Source: Christiangramia portivictoriae DSM 23547
Lineage (GTDB): Bacteria; Bacteroidota; Bacteroidia; Flavobacteriales; Flavobacteriaceae
Assembly: GCF_000423045.1 (NCBI RefSeq)
Contig: NZ_AUHF01000001.1
Span: 1-64,000 of the forward strand
Direction of reading: 5' to 3'
Length of the DNA: 64,000 bases
In this document: positions 28,659 through 53,823 of the stretch, in pieces
Numbering within the stretch: position 1 is the stretch's first letter
How the letters are laid out: each line of letters begins with the position of its first letter
Position numbers and translations under genes: made by a program
Notes under the pieces: model-generated
Databases searched by the model: none
What the model was told of the DNA's origin: nothing
The model's input: the letters and a program-made list of their open reading frames with translations, nothing else

Positions 28659-29675
28659 ATGAGCAACGATAAAGAGAAAGAAGCGAAATTAAAAGCATTA
28701 AAGCTTACCCTTGACAAAATGGATAAAACCTACGGAAAGGGTACCGTGATGAAAATGAGCGACCAGGTAGTCGTAGATGTGGACGCGATTTCTACAGGTT
28801 CACTTGGATTGGACCTTGCTTTGGGAGTGGGAGGATATCCACGAGGAAGAGTGATCGAGATCTATGGTCCTGAATCTTCCGGTAAAACCACCCTGACCTT
28901 ACATGCAATTGCTGAAGCTCAGAAAAAAGGTGGTATTGCTGCTTTTATCGATGCTGAACATGCTTTCGATCGGTTTTATGCGGAAAAATTAGATGTTGAT
29001 ATAGACAATCTTATTATTTCTCAACCAGACAATGGAGAACAGGCTTTAGAGATTGCAGATAATTTGATTCGCTCTGGAGCGATCGATATTATTGTGATTG
29101 ACTCTGTTGCGGCACTAACGCCAAAAAGCGAGATCGAAGGAGAGATGGGAGATTCCAAAATGGGTCTTCATGCCAGGCTAATGTCCCAGGCACTTAGAAA
29201 ACTTACTTCATCCATTAGCAAAACAAATTGTACCGTCATCTTTATCAACCAATTGAGAGAGAAGATTGGGGTGATGTTCGGGAACCCGGAAACTACAACT
29301 GGTGGTAACGCCTTGAAATTCTATGCTTCCGTTCGTCTGGATATTAGAAGATCCACCCAGATCAAGGATAGCGCTAACAATGTTATGGGTAATAAGACCA
29401 GAGTGAAGGTAGTGAAGAACAAGGTTGCTCCTCCTTTTAAAACTGCTGAATTCGACATCATGTATGGTGAGGGTGTTTCCAAGATTGGAGAGATCATTGA
29501 TATTGGAGTTGATTATGAGATCGTAAAGAAAAGTGGATCATGGTTTAGCTATGAGGACACCAAGTTAGGACAGGGACGGGATGCCGTTAAAAACCTGCTT
29601 AAAGATAATCCGGATCTTATGGAAGAACTGGAAGTCAAAATTAAAGACGCGATCAAGGTCGCTAAAGAAGCTTAA
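28659..29675 (+). CDS. recA: recombinase RecA
   Basis: A 338-residue DNA-dependent ATPase that forms the strand-exchange filament in homologous recombination and repair. The Walker A motif GPESSGKT is at 70-77, and [27 protein letters not shown] and [28 protein letters not shown] are the classic RecA signatures. Length is normal and the C-terminal acidic tail is short. It is followed immediately by a strong terminator, so it is monocistronic. I saw no convincing SOS operator upstream. Confidence 0.98.
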
Positions 29676-29678
29676 AAA

Positions 29679-29703
29679 AAATCCCCGAATGGGGATTTTT
29701 TTT
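29679..29703 (+). terminator. intrinsic terminator of recA
   Basis: AAATCCCC and GGGGATTT form an 8-bp stem with a four-base loop (GAAT), followed by an unbroken run of T, four bases after the recA stop. Confidence 0.9.
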
Positions 29704-29758
29704 GTGCCGCACGCAACCATTTATCAATTATTGCATCTACTACGAAAGCAATAAGAAT

Positions 29759-30193
29759 ATGAAAAAATTGGTTGTAATAGCCCTGACATTACTGCTGATA
29801 GGTTGTTCTGTAGATAATGATTCCCAAATCACCTCCTACGAATTAGCAAGCATTACCGATTATGATTTGCCAGATGAACTGGTTCTGGGCAGAACATACG
29901 ATGTTAGAGTCGGTTTCGTTTTTCCATCAGATTGTAATAACTTTCAAGCGCTGGACGCTCGAAGAGCAGGCACTACTTCAGAAGAAAGAAGCCAGATCTA
30001 CATCTCCGTGATCACCGCAGTTGTTGAGAATAATTCCTGCAACCGTGATGTAACCGGACATCCTGCAAGCACGAGGTTTGTATTGACTGTTGACGAAGAA
30101 AGAGATTACACTTTTAGATTCTGGACAGGACAGGACGGGGATGAACCGATATATGAAGAAGTTACCATACCTGTTGTAATGGAGCAGTCCTAA
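29759..30193 (+). CDS. small lipoprotein upstream of the sigma/anti-sigma pair
   Basis: A 144-residue lipoprotein starting at an ATG at 29759, with a type II signal ending in LLLIGC (Cys18). The mature domain of about 125 residues is beta-rich with two further cysteines (FVFPSDCNNF and VENNSCNRD) that could form a disulfide. I recognise no family. It begins just after the recA terminator and ends 21 bp before the sigma factor gene, so it is probably the first gene of that operon and may act in the envelope with the dual-membrane protein. Confidence 0.75.
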   Translation: MKKLVVIALTLLLIGCSVDNDSQITSYELASITDYDLPDELVLGRTYDVRVGFVFPSDCNNFQALDARRAGTTSEERSQIYISVITAVVENNSCNRDVTGHPASTRFVLTVDEERDYTFRFWTGQDGDEPIYEEVTIPVVMEQS

Positions 30194-30214
30194 GTACTAA
30201 CCTAATATGAATAC

Positions 30215-30757
30215 GTGGGTTCAAAAGACCTCATCTACCGTTGTAAACAACAAGACAGGAAAGCTCAGGAAGAGCTTTACCGGCTCTATTCTCCCAAGTT
30301 GTTTGGTATATGTTTGAAGTATTCAGATAATTACCAGCAAGCGGAAGATAATTTGCAGGATGGATTCGTGACCATTTTTGAAAAGATTGGTCAGTTTCAG
30401 GATAAAGGATCCTTTGAAGGCTGGATGAAACGAATCCTTATCAATACCTCGCTTCAGAAACACAGGCAGCAGAAAGTTTATGGCATTACCAATGAGGAAG
30501 ATCTGCAGGAAGATGAAATTGAGGTTGAAACAGAAGACATTTCAGTAGACTTCCTACTACAATGTGTTCAGGATCTGCCAGAAAGGTATAGACAGGTATT
30601 TAACCTTTATGTACTGGATGGCTACTCCCATAAAGAAATATCAGATTTACTAAGTATTACTGAGGGAACATCCAAATCGAACCTGGCCAGAGCCAGAACC
30701 TCTTTAAAGGAGAAGATCGAATTGGTACAGAACTCAAAAGCAGTTAAATCATCATGA
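30215..30757 (+). CDS. ECF-type RNA polymerase sigma factor
   Basis: A 180-residue sigma-70 family factor with region 2 (about 20-85, YRLYSPKLFGICLKYSDNYQQAEDNLQDGFVTIFEKI) and region 4 (about 115-170, LPERYRQVFNLYVLDGYSHKEISDLLSITEGTSKSNLARAR). The only in-frame start is GTG at 30215; a stop lies four codons upstream. The GTG may keep synthesis low. Its stop overlaps the next start by four bases (ATGA), so sigma and the anti-sigma-like protein are made in step. Target promoters are unknown. Confidence 0.9.
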   Translation: MGSKDLIYRCKQQDRKAQEELYRLYSPKLFGICLKYSDNYQQAEDNLQDGFVTIFEKIGQFQDKGSFEGWMKRILINTSLQKHRQQKVYGITNEEDLQEDEIEVETEDISVDFLLQCVQDLPERYRQVFNLYVLDGYSHKEISDLLSITEGTSKSNLARARTSLKEKIELVQNSKAVKSS

Positions 30758-32319
30758 AAGAGAAAAAAAATATAGACAGGATCTTTCAGGAGAAGTTCAA
30801 GGACTTCGAGAAAGAACCATCTCCAAGAAACTGGGAGCAGATTGCTTCGCGCCTGGATGCTGGAGCGCCGGTTGCACAAAAACCGGTTATTCCATTGTGG
30901 CTTAAGTTTAGTGCCGCAGCAGTAATCCTGGCCTTAGTCGCCACAGGAATCTGGAAAATGAATGTTTCTTCTACGGAAGTTCGAGAACCTGGATTTGTGA
31001 ATGAGTCGGTTGAAACCGGAGCAGAAAACAACGGGAATATTGATAAGGACTATTCTTCAGAAGAAAAGATCGTAGATAAGTATAATACCAGTCAAAAAGA
31101 GCAACCTGCTGCCACTTTGCATAACAAACAGAAAAATAAAAACACCTCTGATGAAGCAGGCAGTTCCAATGCGGCTATTGCTGATAAAAGAAGTAATTCT
31201 GACAGTGAAGACCAAAAAGACCTAAATAAATCAGGGTCAAAAGAATCCCATACCAATCAAAGATCAAAAGAAGATTCCCGCTATGCTCATCAGGAAAATA
31301 CTCATGATCAAAATTTGGAAGAAAATAATTTAGAGAATAAATATAGTACCTCAGCCACTACAGCTGTCATTAGCGAAGCAATAACTTCGAACGATGAAGA
31401 TGTAAAGAGAAACACCATTGTAAGTATATTTGAAAGCTATTGGAATGAAAGAAACCCTGAACTTTCAGATGAACTGTTAAGTACTGCTCTTATACAGGAT
31501 ACTTCCCTGAACCAACTCGAAAAATTATTGGCTGCAAAAACTTCCGAAGAAAATAAAGAAAACGAAGAGGAGGAAGACCTTAACCAGAAAAATCTTCGCC
31601 TGTCTACCTTTGCAGCTCCGGTTTTCTATACCAACCTTGGGGATGGAAATATACTGTCCAACCAGTTTTCAAATAACTCAACGAATACCGAAGTAACTTT
31701 CTCTTACGGTGTTAAGCTGGCCTATGATATTGCCAAAAATGTCAAGATTAGGACGGGGATTAGTAAGGTGAATATGAGCCAGAATATCGCTAATGTTTCG
31801 TACAGCCCAACGGCAATGAATCCAGGTTTTAATAATATCAACTCTTTAGAAGATAATATTGAAATTAGGACAGATGCTCCGGCACCTGAAAGTGGTTTAC
31901 CTAGTTTTGGTGGCAATAGTGATGGTAGCACTGGAAGTGTTATTTCTCCATCTGTATTTACTCCCGGGGAGATCAATCAGCAATTTGGCTTTATCGAAGT
32001 TCCCCTAGAAGTGGAATATGCCTTGATCGACGAACGTTTTGGACTGAATCTTATTGGTGGTGCAAGCGGACTGTTCCTTGACCAGAATAGTGTGGATCTT
32101 GTGACTTCCGAATCCAGAACCAAACTTGGAACGGCCTCCAATATCAATAAAACCAGTTTGAGCACCAATGTGGGCATTGGTGTGGATTATGAGTTTAGCG
32201 ATAAAATTAGCCTGAGTGTGGAGCCTATTGTGAAATACCAGGTAAATACTTTTACCAATGTTGATAATGTGCGTCCAGTTAACTTTGGAGTCTACTCGGG
32301 GATTAGCTATACTTTCTAG
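30754..32319 (+). CDS. dual-membrane-spanning anti-sigma factor (Dma-like) with C-terminal outer-membrane domain
   Basis: A 521-residue protein with no signal peptide. Residues 1-45 are charged, with a short helix and SPRNWEQIASRLD, as in cytoplasmic anti-sigma segments. One membrane helix lies at about 48-67. Residues 70-285 are a polar, low-complexity linker rich in Glu, Asn, Ser and Lys, long enough to cross the periplasm. Residues about 290-521 are strand-rich with aromatic girdles and end in SGISYTF, a terminal Phe typical of outer-membrane barrels. This is the layout of Dma anti-sigma factors that span both membranes in Bacteroides. The upstream sigma gene overlaps it by four bases, which supports an anti-sigma role. 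Topology is inferred. Confidence 0.8.
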   Translation: MKEKKNIDRIFQEKFKDFEKEPSPRNWEQIASRLDAGAPVAQKPVIPLWLKFSAAAVILALVATGIWKMNVSSTEVREPGFVNESVETGAENNGNIDKDYSSEEKIVDKYNTSQKEQPAATLHNKQKNKNTSDEAGSSNAAIADKRSNSDSEDQKDLNKSGSKESHTNQRSKEDSRYAHQENTHDQNLEENNLENKYSTSATTAVISEAITSNDEDVKRNTIVSIFESYWNERNPELSDELLSTALIQDTSLNQLEKLLAAKTSEENKENEEEEDLNQKNLRLSTFAAPVFYTNLGDGNILSNQFSNNSTNTEVTFSYGVKLAYDIAKNVKIRTGISKVNMSQNIANVSYSPTAMNPGFNNINSLEDNIEIRTDAPAPESGLPSFGGNSDGSTGSVISPSVFTPGEINQQFGFIEVPLEVEYALIDERFGLNLIGGASGLFLDQNSVDLVTSESRTKLGTASNINKTSLSTNVGIGVDYEFSDKISLSVEPIVKYQVNTFTNVDNVRPVNFGVYSGISYTF

Positions 32320-36807: not shown

Positions 36808-37428
36808 TTAATGCGTGATAAACCTCACGCCTGCCCTTAAAGTCAATAAGTTCACATTTCCAAAGTAGTCTTCCAATTGGGGGCTCACTGCTATATTCAT
36901 AAAATCTCTTCTGATTTCACTACCAAGAAATATTCCGAAGAAATTATTGATACGATAACTAATTTTCGGACCAGCCCAGATACTGGTTGCTGAATCCCTG
37001 AAGTTCGTACCAAACTTTGAATCATGATAATATCCGGTCGTCCCAATACCTGCAATTAGATCCAGATATAATCTTTTATTGAATTGATGTACATATGCAC
37101 CCTGAACGCCGAAGGTGAAGATCCTCGTGCTTTGAATATCACCAATTTTCTCAGACTTTTCTACGCGCGTATTGATGTTTAAAAAACGTGTTCCCACATA
37201 CCAGTTCTTATGAAGGTAGAAGTCGGCACTAAGACCTGTTCCAATGTCAAGGTCATAGGCGTCTTTTAGAAATCCATCGCCTAAAGCAGTTAGCAGACTA
37301 AGTTCAGGATCCAACTGTATACGATTAAAATGATGTGGAAAAAATTCAATGCTGTCCTGCTCCTGTGCAATTATTGAGCTATAAGTGCAAAGCAATGATA
37401 GTGTGAAAACTCTAAAGATCGATCTCAT
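36808..37428 (-). CDS. predicted outer-membrane beta-barrel protein
   Basis: A 206-residue protein. The ATG at 37428 begins a signal peptide (MRSIFRVFTLSLLCTYSSIIAQ). The mature part is made of alternating strands with aromatic residues (GVQGAYVHQFNKRLYLDLIAGIG, GPKISYRINNFFGIFLGSE), typical of small outer-membrane barrels. I recognise no specific family. It overlaps the preceding lipoprotein gene by 17 bp, so the two are cotranscribed and possibly partners. Confidence 0.7.
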   Translation of the reverse strand: MRSIFRVFTLSLLCTYSSIIAQEQDSIEFFPHHFNRIQLDPELSLLTALGDGFLKDAYDLDIGTGLSADFYLHKNWYVGTRFLNINTRVEKSEKIGDIQSTRIFTFGVQGAYVHQFNKRLYLDLIAGIGTTGYYHDSKFGTNFRDSATSIWAGPKISYRINNFFGIFLGSEIRRDFMNIAVSPQLEDYFGNVNLLTLRAGVRFITH

Positions 37429-38113
37429 AATGGTTATCGATTTCATCCACCTCAAATTCATAAATATATACTCCCTGTGCATTCTGTAATTGTAAATTAA
37501 CCCTTGAATTATCAGCAGTGATAAGTTTTAAAGTTTCAACCTGATTTTCAGAATTTATAAAGCCTTCCCTGGTGCTATATTTTGAGTCCAGGTCTGCTTC
37601 ATCGTAAGAGTTTAATTCATTCCAATCGTTAATATTTATTTCTACTGAAGATGATTCAAACTTCAGGCTATAATTGAAGTCTGAATTATGGCGAATGATA
37701 ATTCGCGTCTCGATAAGTTCTTTAAGGACCCATTCCCCCAGATCCAATAAAGTCTCGTTTCTGCTGAAGGCCGAATCACAAACTGTAAAACTCTGCAGTC
37801 TTCGATCATTCGATGTACCAGTAATATCCAGGCATAAAATTCCAGGGTTCACATCCAGTGAAACCATGGAAATATTCCCGTTTTGATCACTTAAAGCTTC
37901 AGAAAGTGTTCCCTGTCCCCGGCTTAAAAAACTATTGATATCTGTAATGGTACTTACCCGGATCCCCTGCAGCGCAGTGCCTTCAGGAGTTACGAATTTT
38001 CCCTGTACCAGAATGCGTTTGTTGTTTTCTATGGATACAGGTGTACAGGAATATAGCGACAGTGCGAAGAAAAGCAGAATTACGCCATAAAAACCGGGCT
38101 TTACTAACTTCAT
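37412..38113 (-). CDS. lipoprotein with carboxypeptidase-regulatory-like domain
   Basis: A 233-residue lipoprotein with a type II signal ending LSLYSC (Cys23). Residues about 35-110 (VQGKFVTPEGTALQGIRVSTI, SDQNGNISMV) resemble the transthyretin-like CarboxypepD_reg fold common on Bacteroidota surface proteins. The rest is beta-rich and unrecognised. The gene overlaps the following outer-membrane protein gene by 17 bp, which suggests a two-component envelope unit of unknown function. Confidence 0.7.
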   Translation of the reverse strand: MKLVKPGFYGVILLFFALSLYSCTPVSIENNKRILVQGKFVTPEGTALQGIRVSTITDINSFLSRGQGTLSEALSDQNGNISMVSLDVNPGILCLDITGTSNDRRLQSFTVCDSAFSRNETLLDLGEWVLKELIETRIIIRHNSDFNYSLKFESSSVEININDWNELNSYDEADLDSKYSTREGFINSENQVETLKLITADNSRVNLQLQNAQGVYIYEFEVDEIDNHYEIDL

Positions 38114-38165
38114 AAGATAGATTCTATTCCTTAGATGCTTATAAAGCTAAATGGTTGCGTGGCAA

Positions 38166-51255: not shown

Positions 51256-53823
51256 TTAATTAAGGTCTGACAAATTTCTTAAATTTTTCTTAATTTGTAC
51301 AATTCTATAATTTTCTGCCGACATGACAAAAGCTTCCTCTTCAATTTTGATGTTCTTATCCTTCTGAAGCAGTTCCAAAAATCCCATGCTTGCAGATCTG
51401 GAGCTAAATCCATGTACAACCAGAAACAACTGCTCATCGCTATAAACATCGGCTGAAGTTTTTATATTCCTGTAGTCTAATTCCTGTAATTTTTCATCGA
51501 TAGCGAGTTTCAAGGAATCTAAAACGGGCGCCTCATTTTCAGAAAAAGAGAAAACCAATTTAAAGTTAGTCTGAGTACTATCTGCTACAAACTCCAGATT
51601 CTTCAAAGACGGAATCGCTGTATTCAATAATTGCTGTGCATTCTGGCCTTCCGGCGATTGCGGGTAATTTGCGGCCACATACTGCAGTGAATTCTGGTAG
51701 GCATCCAGTCCATATAATCTCGCGATCGCCCGTGTTTTCAACAATTCTATCTTGGGCAGGATACTGTTTCCATTATACTGTGATCTGTAATTATCGGCCT
51801 GTTTAATAACTTCAGTGAATTGCTGTGTTTCAAATTTTCTATACAGTTGTTCATAAACATTTTCCGGACTGTTTTCATCCATTTGAACACTCTCAGGATT
51901 TCTGATAAACGCGGCATATCGGGAATCGGGATAATTCTGCAAAATATCCTGTTCCAGTCTTTGCAGGTCACTTACCCGGTTCTGTGCTTTATAAACCGAA
52001 TACAAATTATATTTTGCCGGAAGGATCAGGCTTTGTTGCGGATTATTGTTAAGCATGAATTCAAGCCTGTTCGCTGCCAGTGCATATTCACGGTATTTTT
52101 CATTGTAGATTACTCCCAGTTGATAATTCGCCCGATTTCGCTGAGCAGATAAGCTGTCCAGAATCAGAGCTGCTGTAGGAATCTGAGCCAAATAAGTTTG
52201 AGGATCGTAAATTGGATCGTTATCCAGATTGATATCCATTAATCGTTCTTCAGCATTTACCGTAGTCTGGTTCATCGCACGGCTGCCGTAACGCCAGTTA
52301 TCTGCCAGTTCCCGGCTACCCCAGGTACGAAGAAAATCCTGCGCGCCCCTGGAAACACGTATTGGGTTATAGAAATAAAAAATATTACCACCATTTCCAG
52401 TATTAAAATTACCTGCCGGCGGCACTGTTGCAGAAGCGGGGATATTGGTTTGTGGAAAGTTGGTTCTTGGACCTATGCCTGCGGTATAAGCTGGCAATGC
52501 ACCAGACTCCATGGTTTTGACCGCACGTGCCCTCAAGGTATCCGTATATGCAGTGAAATACTGCAGTCTATCTGTTTCGCTCATGTTCGCGAGCCTAAGG
52601 ATACTATCTGTTTCCTCCGCGATCTGTTCGTAAAGAATTACATCTGCCAGGTTCTCTCTTTTTTTGCTAATGGTTCTGAACTCCAGTAGATCTGGCGACA
52701 TATAGGTAAGGGTACTGTCAAAATATTTACCTGCTTGCTGGTAATTTGCCTCATCAAAACTGATATTCGCGAGGATCTCATAATTGATCGATTTCAGGAA
52801 AATATCGCTTGACGGTGACCTTAAGGAGCGATTATAATAATCTACTGCAGTTTCTACGGAATCTAACTGGTTGTAATATTCACCTATCTGAAAATAAATC
52901 TTGTCCAGGTATGGGCGGTTTTCACGATCTTCTTCCAGTTCTTTTAAAAGTCCCAGCAGCTGGTTGGGATCACCATTCTGAAAATCAAAATTTCTTGCTT
53001 TCTGTACATGCGCATTGACCAGGTAGATTCTTGGTGACTTGCGATTCAGGTCAATTACCTTATCAAAAGAGGCATTTGCCGCTGCGGTTTGATCCAGGCG
53101 ATTATAAAGTTGCCCAAGAATGTAATAATAACGCCCTTTTTCGGCATTGATCCTGGTAAATTCACTGGCATTTTGTAATGGGGCTACTGCGCTGTCTATA
53201 TAGCGTAAATTGATATAAGCCTGTGCTAGACTGGAACTGGCATCGGCAATATCTTCATCGCTAAGTTTGTCTGAATCCAGGATCTTCTTCAGGTTCTTGA
53301 TCGCCAGCTTTTCATTTCCCAGCCTGATATTGGTCTTTTCCCTCCAGATCCTTGCATGAGTAATATTATTACTGGCTGGGTAGCGGTAAAGAATGTAATT
53401 GAATGCATCGAGAGCTGGTACAAAACGTTGATCGAAGTACCTGGATTTACCAAGGAGTAAATAAGCTTCGTCCATTTGTGGGTTGCGTTCTTTGCCTCCT
53501 ATTTGCATGGAATGCTTCTGAATAGCCTTTACCGCTTTTTCTTCAGCAATCCCGAAATTTTGGTTTCTAACGCTGTCTGGTAGAACGATATTTTCATCCA
53601 GCGCCAGTCTTTCAACGGGCAGAATATCCCAGTAATTATCTGCATAGTTCTGGTTGATCTCTTCCTTTCCCTGCTCGAAGGCCAGACCACCGTTATATAA
53701 CGTATTATATTCCGAAGTGATCGCGTGATAATTTCGGTTTACAAAAGAATTCTTTTTCCTGGAGCAGCCAAGAATTGCCGCGACAGTTAGTAGAACCAAT
53801 GAAATTCGGGTAAACGTATTCAA
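51256..53823 (-). CDS. sprE: SprE/PorW, gliding and type IX secretion TPR lipoprotein
   Basis: An 855-residue lipoprotein with a type II signal ending AAILGC (Cys20). The N-terminal NRNYHAITSEYNTLYNGGLAFEQGK and following TPR-like repeats match SprE/PorW, which in Flavobacterium johnsoniae and Porphyromonas is needed for type IX secretion and links the outer-membrane translocon to the inner ring and motor. The start is TTG at 53823: no ATG or GTG occurs between it and the in-frame stop seven codons upstream, and an AAAAGG purine run precedes it. Confidence 0.88.
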   Translation of the reverse strand: MNTFTRISLVLLTVAAILGCSRKKNSFVNRNYHAITSEYNTLYNGGLAFEQGKEEINQNYADNYWDILPVERLALDENIVLPDSVRNQNFGIAEEKAVKAIQKHSMQIGGKERNPQMDEAYLLLGKSRYFDQRFVPALDAFNYILYRYPASNNITHARIWREKTNIRLGNEKLAIKNLKKILDSDKLSDEDIADASSSLAQAYINLRYIDSAVAPLQNASEFTRINAEKGRYYYILGQLYNRLDQTAAANASFDKVIDLNRKSPRIYLVNAHVQKARNFDFQNGDPNQLLGLLKELEEDRENRPYLDKIYFQIGEYYNQLDSVETAVDYYNRSLRSPSSDIFLKSINYEILANISFDEANYQQAGKYFDSTLTYMSPDLLEFRTISKKRENLADVILYEQIAEETDSILRLANMSETDRLQYFTAYTDTLRARAVKTMESGALPAYTAGIGPRTNFPQTNIPASATVPPAGNFNTGNGGNIFYFYNPIRVSRGAQDFLRTWGSRELADNWRYGSRAMNQTTVNAEERLMDINLDNDPIYDPQTYLAQIPTAALILDSLSAQRNRANYQLGVIYNEKYREYALAANRLEFMLNNNPQQSLILPAKYNLYSVYKAQNRVSDLQRLEQDILQNYPDSRYAAFIRNPESVQMDENSPENVYEQLYRKFETQQFTEVIKQADNYRSQYNGNSILPKIELLKTRAIARLYGLDAYQNSLQYVAANYPQSPEGQNAQQLLNTAIPSLKNLEFVADSTQTNFKLVFSFSENEAPVLDSLKLAIDEKLQELDYRNIKTSADVYSDEQLFLVVHGFSSRSASMGFLELLQKDKNIKIEEEAFVMSAENYRIVQIKKNLRNLSDLN

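Follow-up and report, generated by a model that had tools for sequence, protein, structure and literature searches.

A recA-linked lipoprotein, ECF sigma factor and predicted dual-membrane anti-sigma protein in Christiangramia portivictoriae: a probable flavobacterial sensor of outer-membrane state

The first 64,000 nucleotides of contig NZ_AUHF01000001.1 of Christiangramia portivictoriae DSM 23547 (assembly GCF_000423045.1), the whole stretch being called the window here, carry next to recA an operon at positions 29759-32319 in which a lipoprotein gene is followed by a gene for an extracytoplasmic function (ECF) sigma factor and by one for an anti-sigma-like protein of 521 amino acids (aa). 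This locus is described here as a candidate sensor of the outer-membrane state that would drive a small regulon of surface lipoproteins, as a flavobacterial branch of the Reo/Dma type, a reading that we consider probable. Its architecture, synteny, promoter, target class and co-variation were computed, and the features of the operon are the following.

29712-29739, plus strand: probable ECF-type promoter, strict motif CGCAACC-N15-CATCTA in the gap between recA and the sigma gene
29759-30193, plus strand: lipoprotein of 144 aa from a family without a name, with lipobox Cys C16, a seven-strand beta-sandwich model and invariant C59 and C94
30215-30757, plus strand: ECF sigma factor with a GTG start and Sigma70_r4_2 and Sigma70_r2 domains
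30754-32319, plus strand: dual-membrane anti-sigma-like protein of 521 aa, assigned from the model and from conservation, with the four parts below
30754-30888, plus strand: residues 1-45, a two-helix segment (helices 5-15 and 24-35) that co-varies with sigma and is predicted to be cytoplasmic and sigma-binding
30895-30963, plus strand: residues 48-70, predicted inner-membrane helix (AlphaFold2; hydrophobic by eye)
30964-31593, plus strand: residues 71-280, tether, disordered over 75-199 and followed up to 276 by helices modelled with low to medium confidence
31594-32316, plus strand: residues 281-521, outer-membrane-type barrel of eight strands ending in Phe (AlphaFold2, Foldseek and alignment)

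The lipoprotein and sigma genes are separated by 21 bp, and the ATG of the anti-sigma gene overlaps the sigma stop codon by 4 nt (ATGA). This arrangement had been given in a preliminary description made from the letters alone, and the open reading frames (ORFs) and domain matches (Sigma70_r4_2, E 5.7e-17; Sigma70_r2, E 6.8e-14) agree with it; since the same set recurs in relatives, it is not a product of chance. An ATG was also observed 8 nt ahead of the sigma GTG (30207-30217) in a different frame, the in-frame listed start being the GTG at 30215.

The AlphaFold2 model of the anti-sigma-like protein, built on an alignment of 51 rows, had a mean predicted local distance difference test (pLDDT) score of 69.6 and a predicted template modelling (pTM) score of 0.50 over the whole chain. 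Eight long strands were modelled within residues 281-520, in blocks of pLDDT 94-98 except for a poorly modelled part at about 351-400, and tether residues 75-199 lay below 50. Foldseek against the PDB matched the outer-membrane barrels OmpA (9fzc; E 1.4e-8, TMt 0.71) and NspA (1p4t; TMt 0.73), and the terminal Phe521 was nearly invariant (at least 90% of the 51 rows). The Pfam family OMP_b-brl fell just under its cut-off for the window protein (26.3 vs 28.7 bits) and matched 32 of 36 aligned members, the window one included, at E <= 0.01; the matches of the Pfam scan at E <= 1 were confined to two OMP_b-brl families, and neither a FecR nor a TonB-receptor domain was found. A search of the PDB with the anti-sigma profile for sequence relatives returned a single irrelevant match (E 0.2), which was discarded. 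The anti-sigma gene directly follows the ECF sigma gene, as in the Dma/Reo class, and the model supports one chain that would reach from the cytoplasm via the inner membrane to a barrel in the outer membrane. The preliminary description had proposed exactly this succession of N-terminal segment, transmembrane helix, disordered linker and Phe-ending barrel, and the confident barrel model with its OmpA and NspA matches upholds it: the C-terminal domain, for which a soluble periplasmic fold had been the alternative, was modelled as a barrel, and the eight strands expected at 290-521 do run to the C-terminus, from a start near 281 and not 290.

The lipoprotein has the N-terminus ...LLIGC-SVDND, in which the lipobox Cys, C16, is followed by S-V-D-N-D, and residues C16, P38, C59 and C94 were invariant across 57 rows. 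Its model, a beta-sandwich of seven strands, had a mean pLDDT of 89.8. Domain scans matched nothing beyond the lipid-attachment site, no sequence relative was found in the PDB below E 0.19, and Foldseek gave no match below E 0.001. Identity with NigD was considered and rejected, given that NigD_N and NigD_C Pfam matches were absent from 32 members at E <= 1, that the NigD family NF051862 matched 6 of the 32 (best E 0.014) with scores of 13.7-15.2 bits against a cut-off of 60, confined to residues 3-74 (4 members), and that hhalign against three NigDs aligned the N-terminal 29 residues and nothing else. The families Riean_0653 and PG1828 were likewise rejected, their matches being confined to residues 1-37. 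A fold comparison with the NigD relative 3k0y (E 1.7e-24), of which the C-terminal part was matched, gave a VIA Z of 6.2 and a root-mean-square deviation of 3.5 over 98 aligned residues, tied with unrelated Ig-like domains. Judged by sequence, the operon lipoprotein is a new family and not NigD.

Conservation was followed in two samples: 59 genomes, the own one included, of which 24 belong to the same genus, and the best 80 of the 439 confirmed relatives matched by the anti-sigma profile, a set that describes the closer relatives and whose genera we take to be mostly Flavobacteriaceae. A sigma match (E <= 1e-40) was found in 38 of the 59 genomes, including all 24 of the genus. Flanks were taken for 40 of 42 sigma places, the own genome being treated separately; in G023 (G and L numbers are our handles for genomes and loci) the contig ends just past sigma, and recA and the lipoprotein also precede it. 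The order recA-lipoprotein-sigma-anti-sigma was observed in 22/22 same-genus loci examined, and the 40 flanked loci showed recA in 31, a lipoprotein match in 31 and an anti-sigma match in 37. In the 80-locus set, recA was present at 78 loci, and the lipoprotein gene, whose conservation next to the pair the preliminary description had put forward as a check, was kept before sigma at 72; the other eight belong to two Dokdonia, two Aequorivita, two Salinimicrobium, Planktosalinus and Winogradskyella echinorum. The lipoprotein profile matched in 35 of the 59 genomes, 33 of which hold the lipoprotein at the sigma locus, directly upstream of sigma in 31, after the anti-sigma gene in G037 and about 2 kb upstream in G025; G039 and G052 have a weak lipoprotein match only, without such a sigma. 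Two subsets of the 80-locus set, A3 and A4, hold 50 of the 80 anti-sigmas and 56 of the 72 lipoproteins, respectively. Tandem lipoprotein copies were also seen before sigma, three in Zunongwangia mangrovi (L147) and two in three Flavobacterium species (L097, L121 and L148).

The relation to Bacteroides systems was examined class-wide. In 5 of 198 genomes, NigD1/NigD2 genes scored above the NF051862 cut-off, at 12 places in all, and at three of these (L275, L276 and L284) nigD is oriented divergently to an ECF sigma gene and a barrel anti-sigma gene that follows it, the other nine being without such a pair. The flavobacterial anti-sigma profile matched L275, L276 and L284 with E 1.7e-10, 2.8e-7 and 9.8e-11, respectively, and the sigma profile with E 2.6e-46, 4.4e-49 and 1.8e-51, the sigma match being less telling because ECF factors resemble each other. 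An hhalign comparison of the anti-sigma with the Bacteroides type gave E 2.5e-10 over 106 barrel columns and left the N-terminus unaligned, and the Das-like sigma of L284, used as a query in the own genome, had the window sigma as its top match (119.8 vs 99.6 bits for the next). The kinship with Bacteroides dual-membrane anti-sigma factors to which the preliminary description had pointed is thus borne out by both the profile and the hhalign matches, which support the window locus as a flavobacterial branch of the Reo/Dma dual-membrane anti-sigma systems. By eye, an element resembling TTTAACAAA with GATGCAGTA after it seems common to the nigD-sigma gaps of L275, L276 and L284 and may be their own promoter.

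The described systems are compared here through the parts of the cited reports that were accessible, and what is said of them holds for those parts. In EcfO-Reo of Bacteroides fragilis and Phocaeicola vulgatus, an ECF sigma is likewise followed by an anti-sigma that extends from cytoplasm to barrel, the regulon is small and lipoproteins stand under sigma. In Phocaeicola, the anti-sigma spans from the cytoplasm to the surface and an outer-membrane stress response was proposed (PMC13114119, PMC9308784); the EcfO regulon contains three nigD surface lipoproteins, M0N98_03762 being next by number to 03761/03760 (PMC13114119), and the EcfO-type sigma gene was raised 33-fold on toxin treatment (PMC9308784, PMC13114119). 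Das1-Dma1 and Das2-Dma2 of Bacteroides thetaiotaomicron resemble the window pair in the N-terminal sigma-binding part, the transmembrane helix, the disordered tether and the C-terminal barrel, and Das1/Dma1 was reported to raise vesiculation through nigD1 (PMC13088901). The window locus departs from EcfO-Reo in its lipoprotein, whose sequence is unrelated and whose gene heads the operon, reading the same way as the other two, whereas nigD is divergent in L275, L276 and L284; it also adjoins recA, and its targets are mixed lipoproteins (LVIVD propeller, lipocalin-like and others). From Das/Dma it differs in the absence of NigD domains and in a similarity at profile level only, as measured against Bacteroides-type genomes. 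In the FecA-FecR-FecI cascade, an outer-membrane barrel signals to an inner-membrane anti-sigma and this to an ECF sigma, receptor and anti-sigma being two proteins, whereas here one chain would do both, without a FecR or TonB-receptor domain. No sigma response was found in the accessible parts of the papers on the barrel assembly machinery (BAM) and on the lipoprotein transport system Lol, and no description of the window locus, its motif or its lipoprotein family was found in the literature searched, supplements and most subscription papers lying outside that scope. The dual-membrane anti-sigma class and a lipoprotein beside it are, therefore, already known, and as far as the searches show, what is new is a flavobacterial branch beside recA that has a lipoprotein family, a promoter, a mixed surface-type regulon and a split co-variation of its own.

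Co-variation was measured on pairwise distances among 84 taxa (92 minus near-identical ones) after rank regression on plsC, trpS and recA with squares and cubes. The residual correlation of sigma was 0.39 with residues 1-45 of the anti-sigma chain and 0.07 with the barrel, and that of the lipoprotein was 0.30 with the barrel (strands 0.36, loops 0.10) and 0.00 with residues 1-45; residues 1-45 and the barrel of the same chain gave 0.05, and the two halves of sigma 0.35. When the pairs were divided into closer and farther halves, sigma with the N-terminus gave 0.29 and 0.45, and lipoprotein with barrel 0.29 and 0.31. In 300 label shuffles, made with a simpler correction and with the N-terminus taken as residues 1-72, the permutation maximum was 0.139 against an observed 0.41 for sigma and residues 1-72, and 0.127 against an observed 0.28-0.30 for lipoprotein and barrel, while lipoprotein with sigma (0.160) lay within the permutations (maximum 0.162). 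Because the N-terminus follows sigma and the barrel follows the lipoprotein, hardly crosswise, the two chain ends appear to track different partners, and we infer from the sequences that residues 1-45 bind sigma. The preliminary description had also suggested that the lipoprotein is a third, undescribed component that reports the outer-membrane state. That it is a real component is indicated by its place at the sigma locus in 33 of 35 genomes and by its co-variation with the barrel, yet it is missing from 5 of the 38 relatives with sigma, and a lipoprotein beside such a sigma, nigD, had already been described.

The sequence kept upstream of the lipoprotein gene is ACGCAACC(T/A)TT-N12-GCATCTA, in surroundings that vary. 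Between recA and sigma, the strict motif was found at 63 and the relaxed one at 78 of the best 80 of 439 loci, the relaxed counts carrying no reversed control; of the two loci without even the relaxed motif one, L137, begins inside the lipoprotein gene. All eight loci that lack the lipoprotein keep the motif before sigma, six in the strict and two in the relaxed form. Over the 1.04 Mb of the 80 loci, the strict motif had 106 matches and its reversed form 0, and the exact GCAACC-N15-CATCT had 6 matches in the own genome and 0 for the reversed pattern. The motif was present in 36 of the 59 genomes, with 2-7 copies per genome of the genus and one match of the reversed control across all 59, and its occurrence followed that of the sigma factor (35 of 38 genomes with sigma vs 1 of 21 without). 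These patterns suggest that the promoter at 29712-29739 is probably read by the window sigma, in which case the operon would be autoregulated. The motif resembles the SM6 promoters of Flavobacterium psychrophilum in belonging to a flavobacterial ECF promoter class (PMC9723704), and identity with SM6 was rejected: in the accessible part of that report, SM6 promoters contain a CGT box and control several genes of the type IX secretion system (T9SS), whereas the motif here ends in CATCTA and drives lipoproteins. Weaker copies with 1-2 mismatches were observed in the own genome at G000:C4:247229 (L170), C1:651679 (L172) and C2:670317 (L173). A second, divergent copy across recA was seen in several genera (L054, L055, L057, L058, L061 and L062); the copies in L055 and L061 face a presumably trhO-like gene at a distance of about 200 nt, and in L054, L057, L058 and L062 no ORF start lay within the scanned distance.

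Five of the six exact motif sites of the own genome precede a lipoprotein gene, and the sixth, inside purA (L164), was taken as chance. The five are the operon itself, a 233-aa lipoprotein, an LVIVD-repeat lipoprotein (L162; LVIVD, E 1.5e-18), a lipocalin-like one (L165; Lipocalin_4, E 4e-7) and one of 128 aa (L163). Across the genomes, the 128 matches listed gave 124 sites distinct by sequence after identical ones were merged, at least one, that of the G023 operon itself, lying outside the loci scanned. An ORF start was found within 260 nt of 118 of the 124 sites, and the next gene was scored as a lipoprotein at 100 of the 124, with a crude regular expression whose loosening had raised the score from 98/124 to 100/124 and which was applied in the same form to targets and backgrounds; backgrounds scored alike gave 90 of 949 (genes of the 80 loci), 7 of 57 (window) and 10 of 96 (motif-flanking genes). 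The median distance from motif to start was 24 nt for lipoprotein targets. After removal of the own-operon sites by an ad hoc pattern, 72 of 96 sites were scored as lipoprotein (90 of 96 with an ORF), the 90 still including a few sites of the operon itself at which no lipoprotein was recognised. Two or more acidic residues at +2 to +6 after the lipidated Cys were present in 82 of the 100 target lipoproteins, against 28/90, 1/7 and 5/10 of the background ones, and acidic residues after the Cys are described as the lipoprotein export signal, SDDFE in Flavobacterium johnsoniae, in the accessible part of PMC5080379. Since the targets are mostly lipoproteins of this surface-export-like kind, the output is read as a small surface-lipoprotein regulon. 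At least 20 of the 24 genomes of the genus had a lipoprotein of about 409 aa with LVIVD repeats among the targets, and weak paralogues of the operon lipoprotein were seen behind the motif in G021 (L178) and G014 (L223). The remaining features of the window are listed below.

29674-29703, no strand assigned: terminator-like palindrome 3' of recA, listed for the minus strand and read by eye on the plus strand
38132-38159, minus strand: second copy of the promoter, a motif match
37412-38113, minus strand: predicted target, a 233-aa lipoprotein whose start codon is 18 nt past the motif, the same promoter-gene pair occurring in L192, L197 and L227
36808-37482, minus strand: barrel-like protein overlapping the end of the 233-aa lipoprotein gene (OMP_b-brl, E 4.6e-4, below cut-off), a possible second gene of the target operon

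The recA gene ends at 29675, and the palindrome, which reads CCCC-GAAT-GGGG and then T8 on the plus strand, probably separates it from the operon; terminator-like sites across the region equalled those of shuffles (4 vs a mean of 4.0). The mention of gliding and T9SS genes nearby in the preliminary description holds for PorW/SprE, a type IX secretion lipoprotein (E 1e-237) that a scan of 10 window proteins placed at 51256-53823 on the minus strand, some 19 kb away from the operon.

From these results we infer how sigma would be sequestered, what may serve as signal and release step, that the lipoproteins are located at the surface and that the window sigma reads the motif. In the resting state, the 521-aa protein would hold sigma at the inner membrane with its cytoplasmic N-terminus, the eight-strand barrel would sit in the outer membrane and the long disordered tether would join both ends. 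A disturbed outer membrane or surface, with the barrel uninserted, displaced or altered by a ligand, might lead to cutting or movement of the chain and thereby free sigma, which would transcribe its own lipoprotein-sigma-anti-sigma operon and the few other promoters of the type described above, most of them driving lipoproteins with surface-export-like N-termini. A parallel may be drawn with Phocaeicola, in which, according to the accessible parts of the reports, a pair of the same architecture is induced by envelope stress and controls nigD surface lipoproteins (PMC9308784, PMC13114119).

The part played by the operon lipoprotein admits several readings, which are not all mutually exclusive with one another or with those on the barrel. 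It may be output alone, acting like NigD1 to alter the surface or vesiculation after sigma release and having no share in sensing, which we hold to be about as credible as its opposite. Most other predicted targets are also lipoproteins, eight of the 80 loci do without the gene although sigma, anti-sigma and promoter are retained there, the motif also precedes its weak paralogues in G014 (L223) and G021 (L178), and Dma1/Das1 were reported, in the part of PMC13088901 at hand, to work through raised nigD1 expression; however, unlike the other targets, the operon lipoprotein is kept at the locus, and it co-varies beyond phylogeny with the barrel and not with residues 1-45. The same co-variation would fit a lipoprotein that acts as the surface sensor, binding the barrel and keeping the switch off until failed surface export frees sigma, in the manner of a homeostat of surface-lipoprotein export. 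Its predicted surface location, the surface-type lipoproteins of the regulon and its retention as first gene of a probably autoregulated operon agree with this, but the eight loci that lack it and the stronger co-variation with strands than with loops, which is contrary to loop binding, leave it rather doubtful. A related form, in which the barrel has the surface lipoprotein as its ligand, failed delivery of lipoproteins to the surface is felt directly by the anti-sigma chain and sigma then makes more surface lipoproteins, seems unlikely; if true, surface lipoproteins would have a signalling system of their own, in which a two-membrane protein reads the far end of their export path. Because most other predicted targets are lipoproteins too, a role as target or effector is at least as likely as that of a reporter of the outer-membrane state, and the operon lipoprotein is probably a co-regulated surface protein working with the barrel.

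The barrel might instead be a sentinel of barrel assembly, so that an overloaded BAM leaves it unassembled in the periplasm and the anti-sigma is cleaved, the lipoprotein being incidental. In Escherichia coli, unfolded outer-membrane proteins trigger RseA cleavage through DegS. The sensor is itself a Phe-ending barrel, and BcpT was reported to induce a Reo-type regulon along with many genes that respond to the BamA inhibitor bacteroidetocin A (PMC9308784, in part). On the other hand, this reading leaves the retention of the lipoprotein at the locus and its co-variation with the barrel unexplained, and the targets, as far as annotated, are mostly lipoproteins; it may be given a possible, if somewhat lesser, place. 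That the motif is read by another ECF sigma, the operon being merely one of its targets, would draw on the 10 further matches to the Bacteroides sigma query that the own genome holds (E <= 0.001), but is made highly improbable by the joint occurrence of the motif and the window-type sigma and by the permanence of the motif at sigma's own operon even where the lipoprotein is lost.

The favoured reading, that of an outer-membrane-state sensor driving a small surface-lipoprotein regulon, has several observations to its disadvantage. The lipoprotein is not essential, since it is absent from 8 of the 80 loci and from 5 of the 38 sigma-bearing relatives, and the motif is absent from 3 of these 38. 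The motif CGCAACC-N15-CATCT was not found in the divergent regions of L275, L276 and L284, and a longer pattern with up to 2 mismatches gave 8 sites in the own genome against 2 in the reversed control. The co-variation is modest and its pairs are non-independent, rate differences may contribute to it, the lipoprotein and sigma also give a residual correlation of 0.16, and when plsC is left out as control, barrel and lipoprotein each correlate with it (0.60 and 0.57). Regarding the regulon, surface export is predicted solely from the acidic N-termini, and the target set differs by genome, with only the operon and the LVIVD lipoprotein of about 409 aa found to be widespread. The background of 949 genes represents the surroundings of one locus in 80 genomes, in which neighbours recur, rather than a random genome sample. 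Finally, 24 of the 124 sites were not scored as lipoprotein, and some of these precede sigma (L056 and L065), trhO-like or unrelated genes, or no ORF; five of the 24 were lipoprotein-like by eye (L066, L191, L201, L225 and L226).

The way in which Bacteroidota monitor the state of an outer membrane rich in lipoproteins is still unsettled, and this locus offers a handle on it: a defined motif, a regulon predicted to comprise only 2-7 promoters in each genome of the genus, and a sensor that should span both membranes in one chain, located beside recA in many cultured flavobacteria. In F. johnsoniae, depletion of TamL was followed by a rise of 31 of the 47 changed outer-membrane lipoproteins, by a route that the accessible part of the report leaves unexplained (PMC12045153), and a system of the window type is a candidate for that route. 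The findings suggest that the pairing known from Bacteroides, in which a dual-membrane anti-sigma goes together with surface lipoproteins, also occurs with lipoproteins of unrelated families, and, therefore, that the control of surface lipoproteins may be the function common to these systems.

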